Assembly: GCA_017465475.1 (NCBI GenBank) | Contig: JAFTWC010000037.1 | Span: forward strand, 1 to 64,000 | Direction of reading: 5' to 3' | DNA: 64,000 bases | Source: Lachnospiraceae bacterium | Lineage (GTDB): Bacteria > Bacillota > Clostridia > Lachnospirales > Lachnospiraceae | Shown: in pieces, positions 25,468-55,041 of the stretch | Numbering within the stretch: the stretch's first letter is position 1 | Layout of the letters: the number at the start of each line of letters is the position of its first letter | The notes under the pieces: generated by a model | What the model was told of the DNA's origin: nothing | The model's database searches: none | What the model saw: the letters and a program-made list of their open reading frames with translations, nothing else | Made by a program: the position numbers and the translations under genes

Positions 25468-26646
25468 CTATCTCCCGCCTAAACGGAATTTAAAATCATC
25501 GTATCCGAACTGAGCTAAGAGTTTATAGGTGCCGTCACTGTTTGCAACCCAAATATCCGGAAGGGGCATTCCGTTAAAGGTATTGTTTTTATAAGTGGAA
25601 TAAATGGCCATATCTTCATATAATAAGTGGTCGCCTTCGGAAAGGGTTGTATCGAAGCTGTAGTCACCTACCACATCTCCCGCTAAGCAGGTCGGTCCCG
25701 CGAAACGGTAGGTATATTTTTTTTCTTCAGCTTCGCCGGATGAATACAGCGGCGGACGATATGGCATTTCAATCACATCCGGAGTGTGACAAGCCGGTGA
25801 CATGTCATGGATGGCAATGGTAATATCTTTGTTTGTCACCACATCCAGGACCCGGGTAAGAAGATATCCTGCATTTAATGCTACTGCTTCTCCCGGTTCC
25901 AAATAAATATCCAGAGAAAAGGTATTTTTCATATGCGAAATGCAGTTCTTTAAACGTTCCACGTTATACCCCGGTCGGGTAATATGATGTCCGCCCCCCA
26001 TGTTTAGCCATTTAAGCTTGGATAAAATAAATCCGAAATTTTCTTCTACGGCGATTAAAGTTTGTTCCAGTGCATCGGAATCCTGTTCACAAAGGGTATG
26101 AAAATGAAGTCCGTCTAAAAGGGCAACATATTCAGGAGTCAGTTCCTGCTGCCATTGGGCAAGGGTAGTACCCAGACGACTTCCCGGCGCACAAGGATCA
26201 TAGATGGCGTGACCGTCCTGGGTTGAGCATTCCGGGTTAATGCGAAGTCCGATTTCTTTTCCGGCATTTTTGGCCTTTACTCCAAACTTCTTTAATTGGG
26301 CCGGACTGTTAAAGACGATATGGTCTGCGTACAGAAGCAGTTCGTCAAAGTCCTCCTCCCGGTAAGCGGCACAAAATACATGACACTCTTTATGAGGCAT
26401 TTCCTCTGCGCCCAATCGGGCCTCATAGAGGCCGCTGGCTTCGGTACCGGCAAGGAAAGGCGCTAATACCGGATAAAGGTCAAAGTTTGAAAAGGCCTTT
26501 TGGGCTAACAGAATTTTGCAGCCGGTTTCGTCCTGAATCTGTTTTAATAATTTACCGTTTTCTATGAGTTTTGCTTCGTCAATGATGTAGCAAGGTGTCG
26601 GCAGTCCCGATGAAAGTAAACGGTCTTGAATGGAGCGGTGATTCAT
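25468..26646 (-). CDS. nspC: carboxynorspermidine/carboxyspermidine decarboxylase
   Basis: PLP-dependent fold-III decarboxylase that removes CO2 from carboxyspermidine (or carboxynorspermidine), the last step of the aspartate-semialdehyde route. It has 392 residues from the ATG at 26646, which follows GGAAGG; upstream in-frame codons lack a site. PCYIIDEAKL opens the alanine-racemase-like barrel, and the PLP lysine is in ILLAQKAFSNF near residue 47. HFHTLCEQ and LNMGGGHHIT are typical. The C-terminal beta domain has AGPTCLAGDVVGDY. It is the last gene of the polyamine operon, 105 bp after the dehydrogenase. Carboxyaminopropylagmatine is another possible substrate. Confidence 0.92.
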   Translation of the reverse strand: MNHRSIQDRLLSSGLPTPCYIIDEAKLIENGKLLKQIQDETGCKILLAQKAFSNFDLYPVLAPFLAGTEASGLYEARLGAEEMPHKECHVFCAAYREEDFDELLLYADHIVFNSPAQLKKFGVKAKNAGKEIGLRINPECSTQDGHAIYDPCAPGSRLGTTLAQWQQELTPEYVALLDGLHFHTLCEQDSDALEQTLIAVEENFGFILSKLKWLNMGGGHHITRPGYNVERLKNCISHMKNTFSLDIYLEPGEAVALNAGYLLTRVLDVVTNKDITIAIHDMSPACHTPDVIEMPYRPPLYSSGEAEEKKYTYRFAGPTCLAGDVVGDYSFDTTLSEGDHLLYEDMAIYSTYKNNTFNGMPLPDIWVANSDGTYKLLAQFGYDDFKFRLGGR

Positions 26647-26751
26647 AGTCTTATTTTCCTTCCGCTTATTATAAAGTATCAAAGTATAGTTTTGCGGATT
26701 GCTTCTTACGTTTGCTCGAAACAATCCGCATTTTTAACGACATGTTAATAG

Positions 26752-28011
26752 TTAATCGACGAGTACCGGAGTATGGCTTTCCTGATGCGGAAGACCATAT
26801 TTATCCAGTGCTTCAATGTACGGATCCGGATCAAATTCTTCTACGGTATACACACCTGCTTTGTTCCACTTGCCGGTGAGAAGCATGAGAGCTCCGCACA
26901 TTGCCGGAACGCCGGTAGTGTAGGAAATTGCCTGGGATTCTACTTCTTTGTAGCATTCCTCGTGGTCGCAAACATTGTAGATGTAATAGGTCTTTTCCTT
27001 ACCGTCCTTTTTACCGGTGAAGATGCAACCGATGTTGGTCTTACCCTTGGTACGCGGTCCCAAGGTAGCCGGGTCCGGCAAAAGAGCCTTCAAAAACTGA
27101 ATCGGAACAATTTCTTTTCCTTCGTACATAATCGGAGTGGTAGAAAGCATACCCACATTTTCCAAACACTTCATATGAGTTAAGTAGCTCTGTCCGAAGG
27201 TCATAAAGAAACGGATGCGCTTTACCCCCGGAATGTTTTTTGCCAGAGATTCAATTTCCTCGTGATGAAGGAGATACATATCCTTCTGACCAACTTCAGC
27301 AAAGTTGTACTCTCTCTTAATGCTCATGGCCGGAATCTCTATCCATTTGCCGTTCTCCCAGTAACTGCCCGGAGCAGACACTTCGCGAAGATTGATTTCC
27401 GGGTTAAAGTTGGTGGCGAACGGATAGCCGTGGTCGCCGCCGTTACAGTCTAAAATATCGATGGTATCAATTTCGTCGAATTCATGCTTTAATGCATAAG
27501 CGCAGTATGCCTGAGTAACACCCGGGTCAAATCCGGAACCAAGCAGTGCGGTAAGCCCTGCAGCTTTAAACTTTTCCTGATATGCCCACTGCCAGGAGTA
27601 ATCAAAGTAAGCGGAGAAGCCTTCTTCCTTACAACGCTTGTCATAGATAGCGCGCCATTCCGGATCATCAATGTTTTCCGGCTCATAGTTTGCGGTATCC
27701 ATGTAATTCACACCACAGGCAAGGCAGGCATCCATAATGGTAAGATCCTGATACGGAAGGGCAATGTTCATCACCAAATCCGGCTTATAGGAATTGATTA
27801 ATGTAATGACCTCCTCGGTTTTGTCCGCATCTACCTGTGCGGTGGTAATCTTAGTTGCGGTCTTGTCCGCAAGCTTTGCAGCCAGTGCATCGCATTTGGA
27901 TTTGGTTCTGCTGGCAATACAGATCTCCGTAAAAACTTCGCTTACCTGACAACACTTCTGAATTGCTACGGAAGCCACACCGCCGCAGCCGATAATTAAT
28001 ACTCTGCTCAT
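26752..28011 (-). CDS. carboxy(nor)spermidine dehydrogenase (saccharopine-dehydrogenase fold)
   Basis: NAD(P)H-dependent reductase that condenses aspartate semialdehyde with a diamine (putrescine, diaminopropane or agmatine) to give the carboxy-triamine. It has 419 residues. The Rossmann motif VLIIGCGGVASVAIQ is at the N-terminus. DTANYEPEN, LGSGFDPGVTQAYCAYA and DGGDHGYPFATNFNPE-like segments (here CNGGDHGYPFATN) match the Lys9/CASDH family. A RBS (GCGAGGAT) precedes the ATG. Its partner decarboxylase lies 105 bp downstream. Substrate choice cannot be read from sequence alone. Confidence 0.92.
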   Translation of the reverse strand: MSRVLIIGCGGVASVAIQKCCQVSEVFTEICIASRTKSKCDALAAKLADKTATKITTAQVDADKTEEVITLINSYKPDLVMNIALPYQDLTIMDACLACGVNYMDTANYEPENIDDPEWRAIYDKRCKEEGFSAYFDYSWQWAYQEKFKAAGLTALLGSGFDPGVTQAYCAYALKHEFDEIDTIDILDCNGGDHGYPFATNFNPEINLREVSAPGSYWENGKWIEIPAMSIKREYNFAEVGQKDMYLLHHEEIESLAKNIPGVKRIRFFMTFGQSYLTHMKCLENVGMLSTTPIMYEGKEIVPIQFLKALLPDPATLGPRTKGKTNIGCIFTGKKDGKEKTYYIYNVCDHEECYKEVESQAISYTTGVPAMCGALMLLTGKWNKAGVYTVEEFDPDPYIEALDKYGLPHQESHTPVLVD

Positions 28012-28091: not shown

Positions 28092-28961
28092 TTACTTCTG
28101 TCCTTTGTTTTGTTTTTTCAATAATGCCAGCATTAGTTCTCGTACTACTTTACAAGCCAGTGCGGTGCTGGCGCCGCTTTGATCTAACATGGGGCTTAAC
28201 TCGTTGACATCTGCGGCAACGACATTTGCTTTGCATACGGTTTCTAAAGCATCAAGGAGCTCAAGGAAGGTAACACCTCCTGCCTCCGGAGTTCCGGTAC
28301 CCGGAAATGCGGAAGGATCTAAACAGTCCAAATCAATGGTAAAGTAAATCGGTGCATCTCCGATTGCTTCGATGGATTCTTTCAAACCGTTAAAATTAAA
28401 CTTATGTAAGTCGGTATGCTCCTTTGCAAACCGGAATTCATCCCGTTCACCGCTGCGGATACAAAACTGGTGAATTCGGCCGTCTCCGATCAGGTCATGA
28501 CAGCGACGGATGACGCAGGCGTGACTTAACTTTGCACCCAAATAGTCATCCCTTAAATCCGTGTGAGCATCGAAATGAACAACGTGCAGGTCCGGATATT
28601 TTTCTAAAACAGCCCGGAACGCGCCAAGGGTTACTAAATGTTCACCGCCAAGTAACAGCGGAAATTTATCATCCTGCAAGATTTCTTTGGCTGTCTCTTC
28701 AATATCGTCTAAGGCAACCTCGGAGGAGCCGAAGCAAAGCTCCAGGTCGCCCGCATCAAACACTTCATAGTCGGTTAAATCCTCATCCTGATAAGGGCTG
28801 TAAGTTTCCAGGCCGAAGCTTTCGTGCCGGATGGCGGAAGAGCCGTACCGGGTGCCCGGACGGTAACTGGTGGTGCTGTCAAAAGGAGCACCAAAGAGGA
28901 CCAAAGAGGCATCCTCATAGTCGGCATCACAGCCGATAAAGGTTTCAATGTTCTTTTTCAT
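28092..28961 (-). CDS. speB: agmatinase / ureohydrolase
   Basis: Binuclear Mn2+ ureohydrolase that converts agmatine to putrescine and urea. It has 289 residues, normal. The metal ligands are visible in GGEHLVTLG, HFDAHTDLRDDY and FTIDLDCLDPSAFPGTG. It fits downstream of an arginine decarboxylase in the same operon, 34 bp after speE. The enzyme could alternatively or additionally hydrolyse an aminopropylated agmatine (inference from operon content). A RBS (AAAGG) precedes the ATG. Confidence 0.94.
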   Translation of the reverse strand: MKKNIETFIGCDADYEDASLVLFGAPFDSTTSYRPGTRYGSSAIRHESFGLETYSPYQDEDLTDYEVFDAGDLELCFGSSEVALDDIEETAKEILQDDKFPLLLGGEHLVTLGAFRAVLEKYPDLHVVHFDAHTDLRDDYLGAKLSHACVIRRCHDLIGDGRIHQFCIRSGERDEFRFAKEHTDLHKFNFNGLKESIEAIGDAPIYFTIDLDCLDPSAFPGTGTPEAGGVTFLELLDALETVCKANVVAADVNELSPMLDQSGASTALACKVVRELMLALLKKQNKGQK

Positions 28962-28995: not shown

Positions 28996-29850
28996 TTATG
29001 ATTCCACGGCTTCCAGCATTTCCTCTAAAAATGCCGGAAGGTAGAACGCACCCTTATGTAAGTTGGTGGTGTAATATTTTGTGCGGAGCTGCAACTTATT
29101 CCATCCTTCCGCATTTAGGTCATCCAACGGATGATACTTTTTGCTGGCAAATCCGAAGAGCCAGTAGCCTGCGGCATAGGTGGGGATGTGGGCCTGATAC
29201 ACGCGGCTGATCGGAAATGTAGCAACAATACGCTGGTGACTTCGCTGCATGGCCTCCGCATCTTGTTTGTAGAACGGACTTCCCTGCTGGTTTACCATTA
29301 TGCCGTCTTCGCGAAGTGCCTTGTAGCAGTTTCCGTAAAATTCCTTTGTGAACAGACCTTCCGACGGACCGTACGGGTCATTGGAGTCAACGATAATCAG
29401 GTCATATTCGTTTTCGCAGTAGCGGATAAATTTCAAAGCATTTTCATAGTGGATGTTTACCCGACGGTCATCCAGCTGGCAGGTGTTTCCCGGCAGATAT
29501 TGACGACAGGCTTCCACTACCATGGGGTCCATTTCCACCAAATCAATGTGCTTTAACCGTTCATAGCGGGTCAGTTCCTTTACCACACCGCCGTCACCGG
29601 CTCCGATAACCAAAACCTTTTCGATTCCCGGATGTACCGCCATGGGAACGTGAACAATCATTTCATTATAGATAAAGGCGTCTCGTTCCGTTAACATAAT
29701 ATTTCCGTCCAGAGAAAGAATTCGGCCGAACTCTTCACTGTCAAAAATGTCGATTCTCTGGTAATCGCTTTCATTGCAAAAAAGCTGTTTCTTTATGCGG
29801 ATGCTGAGTTTTACATCCGGCGTATGTTTTTCACTAAACCATAAATCCAT
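28996..29850 (-). CDS. speE: spermidine synthase-family aminopropyltransferase
   Basis: Transfers an aminopropyl group from decarboxylated SAM to an amine acceptor. It has 284 residues, normal. LTERDAFIYNEMIVHVP near residue 52 and the SAM-type loop VLVIGAGDGGVVKELTRY near 80 are conserved. DSNDPYGPSEGLFTKEFY near 153 holds the catalytic Asp. No SAM decarboxylase (speD) is in the window. Its presence beside a complete dehydrogenase/decarboxylase pair is redundant for spermidine alone, so the acceptor may be different (agmatine or spermidine). It follows speA by 79 bp. Confidence 0.93.
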   Translation of the reverse strand: MDLWFSEKHTPDVKLSIRIKKQLFCNESDYQRIDIFDSEEFGRILSLDGNIMLTERDAFIYNEMIVHVPMAVHPGIEKVLVIGAGDGGVVKELTRYERLKHIDLVEMDPMVVEACRQYLPGNTCQLDDRRVNIHYENALKFIRYCENEYDLIIVDSNDPYGPSEGLFTKEFYGNCYKALREDGIMVNQQGSPFYKQDAEAMQRSHQRIVATFPISRVYQAHIPTYAAGYWLFGFASKKYHPLDDLNAEGWNKLQLRTKYYTTNLHKGAFYLPAFLEEMLEAVES

Positions 29851-29929: not shown

Positions 29930-31417
29930 TTAATAAGTCTTATTGGTGACCTCTGCCAGTACATTTAAGTGCTCGATTTCCGGATCCTCCGGACCGGTCA
30001 TGCTACAACCCTTTTCTTTTGCGTAGCGAATGTATTCCAGGATATCCCTTGTGATTTTTTCACCCGGTGCCAAAATCGGGATGCCCGGCGGGTAACACAT
30101 GACGAATTCGCTGCAGACCATACCTTCCGTTTCCATAATCGGACGGCTTTCCTTTGGCGCATAGAAGGCTTCCTGTGGGCTTGCTACTACCTGAGGCGGA
30201 ATATATTCCTGGGTTAACATACCGGTTTTGTCCTGTTGGTGACATCTGCGAATTTCCGCAAGAGCGCTTACCAGACGTTCAATTTCCTGGGTACGATCAC
30301 CGATGGAAAGGTAGGCAAGGATATTTCCGATGTCACCGAACTCAATCTGAATGTCATAGTCATCCCGGAGCATATCATACACTTCAATTCCTGCCAGACC
30401 GATGTCCAAAGTATGTACACTTAATTTAATCGGGTCAAAATCAAAAATGGAATCTCCGTTTATCAGCTCCCGGCCGAATGCGTAATAACCACCGATGGAG
30501 TTGATTTCCGTACGGGCATATTCTGCGATTTTACGTACCTGCTCAAAAACTTTTTCACCGCGAAGGGCGAGGTTTCTTCTGGAAATATCCAGGCTGCTCA
30601 TGAGCAGATAACTGCCGGAGGTGGTCTGGGTCAGGTTAATAATCTGGCGCACATAACCTTCGTTGATATTCGGTCCTGCAAGTAAAAAGCTGGACTGGGT
30701 TAGGCTTCCGCCGCTTTTGTGCATGGATACCGAGGCCATATCCGCACCGGCTTCCATGGCGGATACCGGAAGGTCTTTTCCGAAGTAGAAGTGAGTACCG
30801 TGGGCTTCGTCTGCCAGACAGAGCATGTTGTGCTCATGGGCCAGCTTTACGATTCCTCGTAAATCGGAGCAGATACCGTAGTAAGTCGGGTTGTTAACCA
30901 GGACTGCCACAGCATTAGGATGTTCCTTGATAGCACGCTCTACCTGTTCCAGTTTCATGCCGAGGGAAATACCGAGGCGATGATCCACCTCAGGGTTTAC
31001 GTATACCGGAACCGCACCGCAAAGCACCAAAGCGTTAATCACACTTCTGTGTACGTTACGAGGCAAAATAATTTCATCTCCCCGCTTGCAGGCAGTCAGT
31101 ACCATACTTTGTACCGCACTGGTGGTTCCGCCTACCATAAGAAACGCGTGAGCGGCACCGAAAGCGTCTGCTGCCAGTTCTTCCGCTTCTCTGATAACGG
31201 AAATCGGGTGACAAAGATTATCAAGCGGCTTCATACTGTTAACATCAATGGAGACGCACTGTTCACCCAGGAACGCAGTCAGTTCCGGGTTACCGCGGCC
31301 TCTTTTGTGGCCCGGTACGTCAAAGGGTACGACGCGTTTCTGACGGAAGTGTTCTAAGGCTTCGTAAATCGGAGCCTTGTTCTGGTCTAATTTATTTTTA
31401 AGAATGGATTGGCTCAT
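29930..31417 (-). CDS. speA: arginine decarboxylase, fold-I Orn/Lys/Arg type
   Basis: PLP enzyme of the SpeA/CadA-like fold-I family that probably decarboxylates arginine to agmatine, given the agmatinase in the operon; lysine or ornithine activity is possible. It has 495 residues from the ATG at 31417, which follows AAGGAG; an in-frame upstream ATG lacks a site. VPFDVPGHKRG near residue 25 and the PLP lysine in SVSMHKSGGSLTQSS near 225 are family marks. The C-terminal domain has YPPGIPILAPGE. It heads the polyamine operon and is preceded by a long structured untranslated region. Confidence 0.93.
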   Translation of the reverse strand: MSQSILKNKLDQNKAPIYEALEHFRQKRVVPFDVPGHKRGRGNPELTAFLGEQCVSIDVNSMKPLDNLCHPISVIREAEELAADAFGAAHAFLMVGGTTSAVQSMVLTACKRGDEIILPRNVHRSVINALVLCGAVPVYVNPEVDHRLGISLGMKLEQVERAIKEHPNAVAVLVNNPTYYGICSDLRGIVKLAHEHNMLCLADEAHGTHFYFGKDLPVSAMEAGADMASVSMHKSGGSLTQSSFLLAGPNINEGYVRQIINLTQTTSGSYLLMSSLDISRRNLALRGEKVFEQVRKIAEYARTEINSIGGYYAFGRELINGDSIFDFDPIKLSVHTLDIGLAGIEVYDMLRDDYDIQIEFGDIGNILAYLSIGDRTQEIERLVSALAEIRRCHQQDKTGMLTQEYIPPQVVASPQEAFYAPKESRPIMETEGMVCSEFVMCYPPGIPILAPGEKITRDILEYIRYAKEKGCSMTGPEDPEIEHLNVLAEVTNKTY

Positions 31418-31468
31418 ATCGGAATCTCCTTCGTGTGGTATTTTTTGCACGCATGCTTATAATAAGTG

Positions 31469-31607
31469 TTTCGTGCAAGCGGTGCTTCGCACCAGCCCGC
31501 ATTCCGCGACTAACGTCGCTCCATCGTGGGCGCGTTCGCATGACTGCGCAACCGTTTGGAAACAAGTTTCCACGATTTGCTCGCATGCTCACTTTGCTTA
31601 CACGAAA
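31469..31607 (-). repeat. multi-hairpin palindromic element upstream of speA
   Basis: An outer imperfect stem (31469-31480 with 31596-31607, TTTCGTGCAAG against CTTACACGAAA) encloses several perfect small hairpins. These are GGTGC-TTC-GCACC, GCGAC-TAAC-GTCGC and GGAAAC-AA-GTTTCC, the last inside a longer ATCGTGG/CCACGAT stem. It is markedly GC-richer than its surroundings. It fills the untranslated stretch between the speA start and the terminator at 31605-31641. Architecture (stem with a multi-hairpin head) resembles the two long palindromes at 54740 and 58783. Function unknown. Confidence 0.5.
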
Positions 31608-31641
31608 AAAAAGCAAGCTTATGTCCTACGACACAGCTTGC
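31605..31641 (-). terminator. intrinsic terminator in the speA upstream region
   Basis: On the minus strand GCAAGC and GCUUGC close a hairpin with an inner UGUC/GACA helix, followed by eight uninterrupted U (A8 at 31605-31612). It lies about 190 nt before the speA start and downstream of the structured RNA. It either ends an independent small RNA or acts as an attenuator of the polyamine operon. Confidence 0.85.
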
Positions 31642-31680: not shown

Positions 31681-31716
31681 CACAAAAAGGAAATAAGATA
31701 CCGGAACGCTCCGGTA
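31681..31716 (-). terminator. terminator-like hairpin after the structured RNA
   Basis: On the minus strand UACCGGA and UCCGGUA form a 7-bp stem with a short loop (31699-31716), followed by a U-rich tract CUUAUUUCCUUUUUG. It would define a transcript end about 300 nt from the promoter at 31992-32021. Confidence 0.65.
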
Positions 31717-31756
31717 CGTGGAAGTATTCGATATCTGGATTCGGGATGATCAGAGT

Positions 31757-31991
31757 CTATATAGCAATCACTTTTACTACTCTTATTGACCGTTTCACAA
31801 GTCTGCGTCACAAAACGCAATTTCGGTTATGAAGTAACCAACTTATAAAATTTGAGCTTTTAACTCAATCAATAAGGCAACTTTCGTCGCCAATCGGCAG
31901 TGGACCCGGCTGTCCGTATGGCCTCAACTCCAAGGAGTGGTCCTATAATTGCTCAGAAAGGCTCTGTTAACATCCTTCCAAAGTAATTGCT
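31757..31991 (-). ncRNA. candidate structured RNA closed by a 15-bp terminal stem
   Basis: On the minus strand the 5' segment 31980-31994 pairs with 31760-31774 over 15 positions with one G-U, closing a domain of about 230 nt. Inside, GGACC pairs with GGGTCC around an ACTCC/GGAGT hairpin and a GGC/GCC hairpin with loop ATACGGACA. A GGCGAC-GAAA-GTTGCC tetraloop hairpin follows, then TTGAG/CTCAA, GGTTA/TAACC and TGCGT/ACGCA hairpins. A consensus promoter sits right at its 5' end and terminators follow. I cannot name the class. It may be a raiA-type or other large ncRNA, or a riboswitch for the speA operon. Confidence 0.7.
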
Positions 31992-32021
31992 ATAGTACCA
32001 TAAAAATGGAGGAACTGTCAA
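31992..32021 (-). promoter_or_regulatory. strong promoter of the structured RNA / polyamine operon
   Basis: On the minus strand TTGACA (32016-32021), 18-bp spacer, TACTAT (31992-31997). The predicted start (about 31985) lies at the first bases of the closing stem of the structured RNA. No better promoter was seen nearer speA, so it may also serve the operon, with a leader of about 570 nt. Confidence 0.85.
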
Positions 32022-43359: not shown

Positions 43360-43379
43360 GCAAACCAAGTTAATACAAA

Positions 43380-43653
43380 AAGCTGTGACGAAGAATGGGC
43401 AAAGTGATAAAACATTGCAGAGAGCCGGTGGTTGGTGTGAACCGGCATGAAAAAGCGTTGTCCTCTCACTTCCGAGCCGGAGACTTGAAGCTCATATGAG
43501 TGTGTAGGGTGTCCCGTGTATGCTACGTTAGTGCATAGAAGTTATTAGACTTCGATGAGGTGGCGGATGTTTATCCGCAATTTGAGTGGTACCGCGAGTG
43601 CAATGTTGTATTTACACCCGTCTCAAAGCAGAAAAGCTTTGAGGCGGGTTTTT
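43380..43653 (+). promoter_or_regulatory. leucine T-box riboswitch (specifier CUC) with terminator
   Basis: A tRNA-sensing leader. Stem I has the apical GGTTGGTGTGAACCGG. The specifier CTC (43466-43468), immediately before ACTTCCGAG, reads leucine. The T-box bulge sequence TGGTACCGCG is at 43587-43596. A terminator with a GTCTCAAAGC/GCTTTGAGGC stem and T-run spans 43617-43653. Uncharged tRNA-Leu would favour the antiterminator and allow leuACDB transcription. Confidence 0.93.
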
Positions 43654-54739: not shown

Positions 54740-55041
54740 GCCGATTTCAGTGTCGGTGAAGCATGTGGTAAAGGAAAGTTTCTTGTGTTTATTACCGGAT
54801 TTTCATGGGTTCCGGATGTAAGTCTTTCTAATTGTTTCGGTTTGTGTTAGTAAAGAGTGACGCAACCGCCCTGACGCAACCTCCGTGTTGCGTGGCGGGC
54901 TCGTTCAGACTTCCGTGTCTGAACGTTGTTGATTATGAATGAAACAATAAGAAAGTCTAACATCCTACACAAAATTCAAATCCGGTAATAAACACAAGAA
55001 ACTTTCATGACCAATAGGTTATTGCCGACACTGAAATCGGC
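54740..55041. repeat. giant imperfect palindrome 1 (about 300 bp)
   Basis: Nested arms: 54740-54756 with 55025-55041 (17/17), 54774-54802 with 54978-55006 (29/29), 54814-54838 with 54941-54965 (about 22/25). The arms enclose a head with two hairpins: ACGCAA/TTGCGT extended by CCGCC/GGCGG (54866-54897), and a perfect 9-bp CGTTCAGAC/GTCTGAACG (54902-54925). There is no coding frame. It fills the gap between the nitroreductase and the malE-like gene. It may be a long structured RNA, a mobile-element remnant or a cruciform DNA site. Confidence 0.85.

Follow-up and report, generated by a model that had tools for sequence, protein, structure and literature searches.

On the minus strand of a 64,000-nucleotide stretch of DNA from a Lachnospiraceae bacterium, called the window below, we identified a leader RNA (31985-31605) that abuts its promoter and lies 5' of the polyamine operon speA-speE-speB-CASDH-nspC. 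It contains a conserved RNA of about 200 nt, in which nine helices pair well above slid controls and a pseudoknot is probable, followed by an intrinsic terminator. That this leader is real, conserved and cis-regulatory can be stated with high confidence and cis-attenuation is strongly supported, while we have moderate confidence that it is a polyamine riboswitch. Taken as a whole it probably works as a cis-acting, transcription-terminating, polyamine-responsive OFF riboswitch, for which we infer the direction of the switch, the identity of the ligand and its direct binding.

Promoter, family assignment and downstream genes

The promoter consists of a -35 box TTGACA (32021-32016) and a -10 box TACTAT (31997-31992) separated by an 18-nt spacer, as the initial annotation had described it, and from this spacing transcription is predicted to start at about 31985, a few bases before the first hairpin P0. 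It is the only promoter-like site that a simple scan listed on this strand. The motif alone is at chance level (three sites in the scanned stretch vs 1.5 ± 1.1 in shuffles), and the promoter call is supported because its position is conserved among relatives: 91 of 121 representatives score at least 10 of 12 at that place, compared to 5.5% of shuffles, and the -10 box ends at a median distance of 75 nt ahead of the conserved core. The fold of the leader is more stable than 200 out of 200 shuffled sequences (z -3.75).

A comparison with Rfam, as proposed in the initial annotation, which had not been able to match the RNA to a class, identified RF02440 (SpF59_sRNA, "ldcC RNA", 54 nt) at 31943-31894 on the minus strand. 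The match spans the full model (1-54) with 67.1 bits and lies above the gathering score of 37.2 that decides membership. Apart from RF02440 no family exceeded its threshold in the leader, and no raiA, 6S, SAM-I, T-box or any riboswitch model matched this stretch in the Rfam scan even at E ≤ 1. The idea of a large, structured, riboswitch-like RNA that is transcribed from a separate promoter in front of the polyamine operon is supported, and the suggested raiA or stand-alone ncRNA found no support. The RNA had also been called unassigned, which is only partly right, as Rfam contains its 54-nt core as a Streptococcus sRNA; the conserved domain of about 200 nt exceeds that model. Two weak matches below their gathering scores were rejected, RAGATH-12 (19.1 bits) and Clostridiales-1 (24.3 bits), the latter falling on a dispersed repeat (31602-31474).

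The structured region ends at about 31750 and is followed by a linker, the terminator hairpin, this repeat and the likely ATG of the decarboxylase gene at 31417. The repeat (31474-31602, minus strand), located between terminator and speA, has 36 matches in the genome; a similar insertion was seen by eye in the genus relatives L195 and L197, and not in L191, L192 and L196.

All operon genes are encoded on the minus strand. The first one (29930-31417) encodes a speA/ldcC-type Orn/Lys/Arg decarboxylase (Pfam PF01276, 230 bits) whose best NCBIfam match is LdcC with 75.6 bits, far under the cut-off of 968, and judging from the sequence its start is likely the ATG at 31417 rather than the GTG at 31450. 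It is followed by the spermidine synthase gene speE (28996-29850, TIGR00417) and the agmatinase gene speB (28092-28961, TIGR01230), both above cut-off. The next product is a carboxy(nor)spermidine dehydrogenase-like protein (CASDH, 26752-28011) with saccharopine dehydrogenase domains in Pfam and 409 bits to NF043000, under the curated cut-off of 800, and the last is the carboxy(nor)spermidine decarboxylase NspC/CASDC (25468-26724) with 400 bits to TIGR01047, just under the cut-off of 409.

Structure of the conserved domain

From 165 loci 159 were long enough to be aligned, and among these conservation extends from the promoter to GACTCTGA, far past the 54-nt Rfam model. Thinning at 80% identity gave 122 representatives, of which ten without anchors were left out, and for the remaining 112 the percentage of paired cells was compared with slid controls; as the helix positions were chosen by inspecting the alignment and the sequence of the window itself, this comparison is biased in their favour over the slid versions. 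All helices are given on the minus strand.

The 5' hairpin P0 (GGAAGG/CCTTTC, 31956-31979) directly after the start is weak on the alignment, with 58.6% paired cells (slid 37-53%) and 48 doubly changed cells (slid 16-45), and could be seen by eye in relatives from the genus. The domain is closed by P1, formed by AGCAATTAT (31945-31953) and GTGATTGCT (31763-31771), which is paired in 83.5% of cells (slid 29-51%) with 39 doubly changed cells (slid 12-33) and can be read by eye even in the divergent variants L186 and L190. Another closing helix had been proposed before, a stem of 15 bp whose strands TATAGCAATTACTTT (31994-31980) and AAAGTGATTGCTATA (31774-31760) do exist exactly as described. The 5' strand of this stem begins within the -10 box and extends past the predicted start at about 31985, which would leave nine of the 15 bases outside the transcript, and its 5' letters vary within the genus (L192, L193, L196, L197, L198). 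With 50.0% of cells paired vs 37-51% in slid controls (12 of the 15 pairs, 112 sequences) it was rejected as the conserved closing helix. In the conserved P1 this 3' strand is paired with AGCAATTAT (31953-31945), using a second copy of AGCAATTA located 38 nt further in.

The RF02440 core (31894-31943) comprises P2 (GGACC/GGTCC), the hairpin P2a, P2b (GGC-CATACGGACA-GCC) and a conserved TGCCGA. P2 is paired in 97.5% of cells (slid 13-66%) with 51 doubly changed cells (slid 0-31), P2a in 91.5% (slid 13-50%) with 118 (slid 16-42) and P2b in 98.8% (slid 0-35%) with 12 (slid 0-1), including a swap from G-C to C-G in nine sequences. Next to the core lies the hairpin P4 (GGCGAC-GAAA-GTTGCC, 31876-31891), which is helix 1 of the 35-sequence alignment described below and shows 83.4% paired (slid 31-63%) and 95 doubly changed cells (slid 6-69). 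The initial annotation had already noticed this hairpin, the CATACGGACA loop and the three-way junction closed by GGACC/GGTCC, and the sequence contains all three.

The 3' part of the domain (31783-31875) is closed by P3 (TTATTGA/TCAATAA) and holds P5a (TTGAG/CTCAA), P5 (TTTTATAAGT/ACTTGTGAAA), P5b (GGTTA/TAACC) and P6 (TGCGT/ACGCA). P3 is paired in 94.2% of cells (slid 14-64%), P5a in 93.1% (slid 6-61%) and P5 in 97.3% (slid 37-59%). Their doubly changed cells, three (slid 1-3), 11 (slid 7-14) and two (slid 0-4), respectively, do not exceed the slid controls and therefore these helices rest on pairing and not on covariation; the most conserved parts, namely P3, P5 and the tail, vary too little for covariation. 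P5b reaches 81.3% (slid 13-52%) with 21 doubly changed cells (slid 11-16), and P6, which like P0 is poorly aligned, 64.2% (slid 9-64%) with 56 (slid 13-33). In an alignment of the 3' domain with 35 of the 72 eligible rows (45 proposed) 88.1% of the cells are paired compared to 31-47% in slid controls. The number of doubly changed pairs (18 vs 9.6 in shuffles) and the covariation score (0.162 vs 0.101) were reached in none of 500 shuffles, and the number of pair types was matched by 29 of 500. The covariation across homologues that had been named as a check is found, together with an expression platform.

The conserved 3' tail (31753-31782) contributes a further pairing P7 between GAGT (31782-31779) and ACTC (31756-31753). 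P7 is fully paired in 100 of the 101 anchored sequences, as GAGU/ACUC in 95, GAGU/GCUC in three and GAGC/GCUC in two, which corresponds to two double changes and three GU intermediates, the anchor itself favouring the motif and 28 of 129 sequences being unscored. Among the latter, as judged by eye, some still have GAGU and ACUC on either side of an inserted hairpin (for example L016 and L081) and others seem to be without the P7 pairing. As P7 crosses P1 the domain is probably pseudoknotted.

Terminator and antiterminator

The intrinsic terminator, which was missed by the simple scan, consists of the hairpin GCAAGCTGTGTCGTAGGACATAAGCTTGC (31613-31641, minus strand, -16.1 kcal/mol) and a run of eight T (31605-31612). 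A second hairpin with a weaker T-rich tail (31698-31717, minus strand) might possibly be a pause site or a first terminator. Defining a terminator as a hairpin of -10 kcal/mol or below followed by at least six T in eight positions, and taking gene starts from the match itself, we found one ahead of the gene in 104 of 117 representatives, where 7.75 are expected from shuffles, and detected none in 13; the 117 remain after dropping three with a too short linker and others without a gene match. Translational control had been considered for loci lacking a terminator and was dropped, as most of 52 apparent cases were an artefact of over-extended gene starts.

The 5' arm of the terminator is complementary to a segment of 22 bases that holds the 3' strands of P6 and P5. 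In the window these strands form the antiterminator partner GACGCAGACTTGT (31797-31809, minus strand), and GACGCAGACUUGU (31809-31797) can form 12 pairs with one bulge with GCAAGCUGUGUC (31641-31630; -17.7 kcal/mol). Five of the 104 loci with a terminator are without the segment anchor, and for the other 99 the duplex of arm and segment from the same genome has a mean energy of -13.47 kcal/mol vs -10.65 kcal/mol (sd 0.23) after permuting the arms. This mean was reached in none of 20,000 permutations, and in none of 5,000 within gene classes, a result that overstates independence because related sequences share both arms. When the partner was slid along the RNA (n = 50) the only peak was at the P6/P5 segment (-13.8), with -13.7 at an overlapping slide of six bases and -9.6 or weaker at all other places. 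Clade-specific swaps are also seen: in L023 a change from ACUUGU to AUUUGU is accompanied by CAAAUG in the arm, and L012 has the segment AUCACUUGU and the arm ACAGGUGA. The fit is poor in L121 (-4.4) and L028 (-5.5). Within the genus GCAAGCTGTG is unchanged in six other genomes with the rest of the hairpin varying, and it was not found in three genomes, for one of which the contig stops within this region.

Immediately before synthesis of the 3' arm of the terminator, the aptamer fold of the window is more stable than the forced antiterminator by 5-7 kcal/mol, and once the hairpin is complete the terminator state is favoured by 13-14 kcal/mol; these energies come from simple models that leave out the pseudoknot and kinetics, and they do not show a balanced switch. 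The leader combines a structured 5' domain with a terminator and a mutually exclusive antiterminator that uses strands of this domain, both of them features of a transcription-terminating riboswitch.

Distribution and associated genes

RF02440 was detected in 29 of 150 family genomes and in 18 of 398 phylum genomes with one match per genome, pointing to a patchy occurrence. A control genome of Lactococcus lactis also has a match to RF02440. Scanning genome contigs for the exact 21-mer GGCCATACGGACAGCCGGGTC gave at least 118 loci in the sample. The 80 matches listed include Paenibacillus, Bacillus, Neobacillus, Acidaminococcus, Phascolarctobacterium, Faecalibacterium, Flavonifractor, Blautia and many MAGs, among them single ones labelled Spirochaetes and Synergistaceae. 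Apart from these single MAGs the genomes listed fall into Bacilli, Clostridia and Negativicutes. The record of a Paenibacillus plasmid aligns to 72% of the query with 80.1% identity.

For the gene census tblastn was run with queries from polyamine genes only and the first match within 900 nt was taken. Six of the at least 118 loci had too little downstream DNA, and among the matches listed the first gene is of the polyamine type in 111 of the 112 scorable ones (speD 39, speA 36, CASDH 21, potA 15). The sole exception among them (L108) has a gene for a 132-aa P-II family protein (PF00543) after the RNA, then a PotA-like ATPase and a permease. In the RF02440 set, the window included, speA, speD, CASDH or potA comes first in 45 of 46 loci, and the only locus without a polyamine gene next to it (L010) is followed by a family M28 peptidase. 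The start of the first gene lies within 500 nt of the core in 157 of 158 cases. We scanned ten of the 15 first ORFs of the PotA type, and all ten have a spermidine/putrescine ABC transporter ATPase as best NCBIfam match, eight of them above the cut-off. In L049 PotB, C and D follow PotA with scores under the curated cut-offs, and this gene order recurs in the other potA loci whose DNA extends far enough.

A covariance model built from 35 rows of the 3' domain without the core, some of them taken from the phylum genomes themselves, found the leader in 25 of these 398 genomes, and seven of the 25 have no RF02440 match. All 25 loci precede polyamine genes (speA 8, speD 10, CASDH 7). In the own genus the RNA occurs once in each of ten genomes including that of the window; nine copies precede speA and in the tenth the contig ends early.

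Two reduced variants (L187, L188) are still located before speD-speA. By eye they lack the RF02440 core and P2-P4, what is left of the domain being P1, the tail and the ACTTGTGAA segment, and a terminator is visible in L187. They may define a minimal sensor, and their presence at these genes without the core makes the location of the ligand site uncertain.

Proposed mechanism and alternative explanations

In our model RNA polymerase would start just before P0 and make the domain of about 200 nt with P1 to P7, followed by the linker and the terminator. In the absence of the effector, P6 and P5 would release their 3' strands (GACGCAGACUUGU) to the 5' arm of the terminator, resulting in an antiterminator and transcription of the operon. 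An effector stabilising the domain would let P5 and P6 keep these strands, leaving the terminator arm free, so that transcription would stop with a short RNA of about 380 nt as product. Polyamines are among the most abundant cations of the cell, and the effector would most likely be a directly bound polyamine, spermidine in the first and putrescine in the second place, because polyamine supply is all that speA, speD, CASDH and potABCD have in common. The carboxyspermidine route needs no SAM and polyamine import needs neither synthesis route, which leaves spermidine as the simplest ligand for both routes and import. As the controlled genes serve synthesis and uptake, the effector would close the switch.

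The same domain might be read by a protein, either an RNA-binding regulator or a ribosome-associated factor that stabilises it and thereby controls the terminator. Long, almost invariant stretches such as the 3' tail can be protein sites, and the tail survives in the variants without P2-P4, but the spread over Bacilli, Clostridia, Negativicutes and the MAGs labelled Spirochaetes and Synergistaceae demands an equally widespread factor, and we regard such a reader as unlikely. Slightly less probable still is a riboswitch for another metabolite, for which S-adenosylmethionine, decarboxylated SAM, agmatine, arginine or methylthioadenosine come into question with speA and speD being the commonest first genes; the 21 CASDH-first and 15 PotA-first loci among the matches listed need neither SAM nor arginine.

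The near-total linkage to polyamine genes and the self-matched terminator arms point to action in cis, and they make it very improbable that we are dealing with a trans-acting small RNA that is merely located before speA, as F59/srn235 is usually classed. The latter view agrees with the Rfam type 'Gene; sRNA' and with the literature, where F59 is tabulated as putative sRNA and has the entry 'Lung' beside it in a review table, an entry that could reflect changed expression of SP_0916. The least probable explanation, with hardly any likelihood left, is an attenuator based on a leader peptide and ribosome stalling, as in speFL. The 3' part contains a short ORF beginning with GTGAAACGGTCAATAAGAG whose start codon is present in 100 of 112 sequences, but the reading frame is not conserved: the distance to the stop motif ATATAG splits 22/27/27 over the three frames and the motif is missing in 36 of 112, by which this explanation is largely refuted.

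Relation to known RNAs

The polyamine riboswitch proposed here has its closest counterpart in F59 of Streptococcus pneumoniae, with which it was compared via the Rfam model and the published position and length. F59 sits between SP0915 and SP0916, SP_0916 being an arginine decarboxylase, and a 2025 paper has srn235/F59/Spd_sr49 (869478-869804, 327 nt) among the putative sRNAs, in a row without the cis-regulator footnote given to M8 and M12. Both RNAs precede a speA-type gene and share the core (67.1 bits), and the 327 nt fit a transcript from start to terminator. RF02440 differs in that it models 54 nt only and is typed as sRNA, whereas the leader in the window combines a conserved domain of about 200 nt, including P1 and P3-P7, with a promoter and a matched terminator, and across many Bacillota such leaders are coupled in cis to polyamine genes. 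The Rfam label 'ldcC RNA' indicates that at least the gene neighbour had already been noticed.

The spermidine riboswitch described in PMC10853860, a rare variant of SAM-I, is associated with speE, speB, speD and ldcC, and in the literature covered here it is the one bacterial riboswitch class for polyamines with experimental support. It resembles the leader in its position before polyamine genes including ldcC and in switching OFF by premature termination of transcription. The leader has no SAM-I match at E ≤ 1 and differs in fold, size and conserved letters, and an assignment to this SAM-I-derived class was therefore rejected. The odc1 motif, which lies before ornithine decarboxylase and has a loop pseudoknot and a uORF, and the weak candidate potE are also RNA elements near polyamine genes and were compared by their description in PMC8632094. 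In the accessible open-licence literature, supplements aside, we found no description of the leader RNA as riboswitch or attenuator, nor in the accessible parts of PMC11109978, PMC8632094, PMC7266159, PMC6429828, PMC10043782 and PMC8040213 on RNA discovery and riboswitches.

On balance we lean towards the view that the leader represents a second natural class of polyamine riboswitches with a fold unrelated to the SAM-I-derived one, scattered through many Bacillota families and controlling SpeD/SpeE and carboxyspermidine synthesis as well as import by PotABCD, with F59 as a terminated product. F59, listed with putative sRNAs in virulence studies, would then be a leader that regulates an arginine decarboxylase gene in cis, which would also explain its detection as a short transcript. 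The model names the pairing partners of the ON and OFF states and can thus be tested.

The loop of P2b contains ACGGAC, which fits the AYGGAY of TwoAYGGAY RNA (RF01731), but cmscan made no such call in the leader and a short-loop coincidence is likely. A TwoAYGGAY RNA is found elsewhere in the window (54807-54972, minus strand, 106.9 bits), and the ORFs of at least 100 aa near it are all on the plus strand and include nitroreductase-like and sugar-binding-protein-like ones, as named by eye. The window also carries a T-box leader (RF00230) at 43376-43628 on the plus strand with 98.3 bits.
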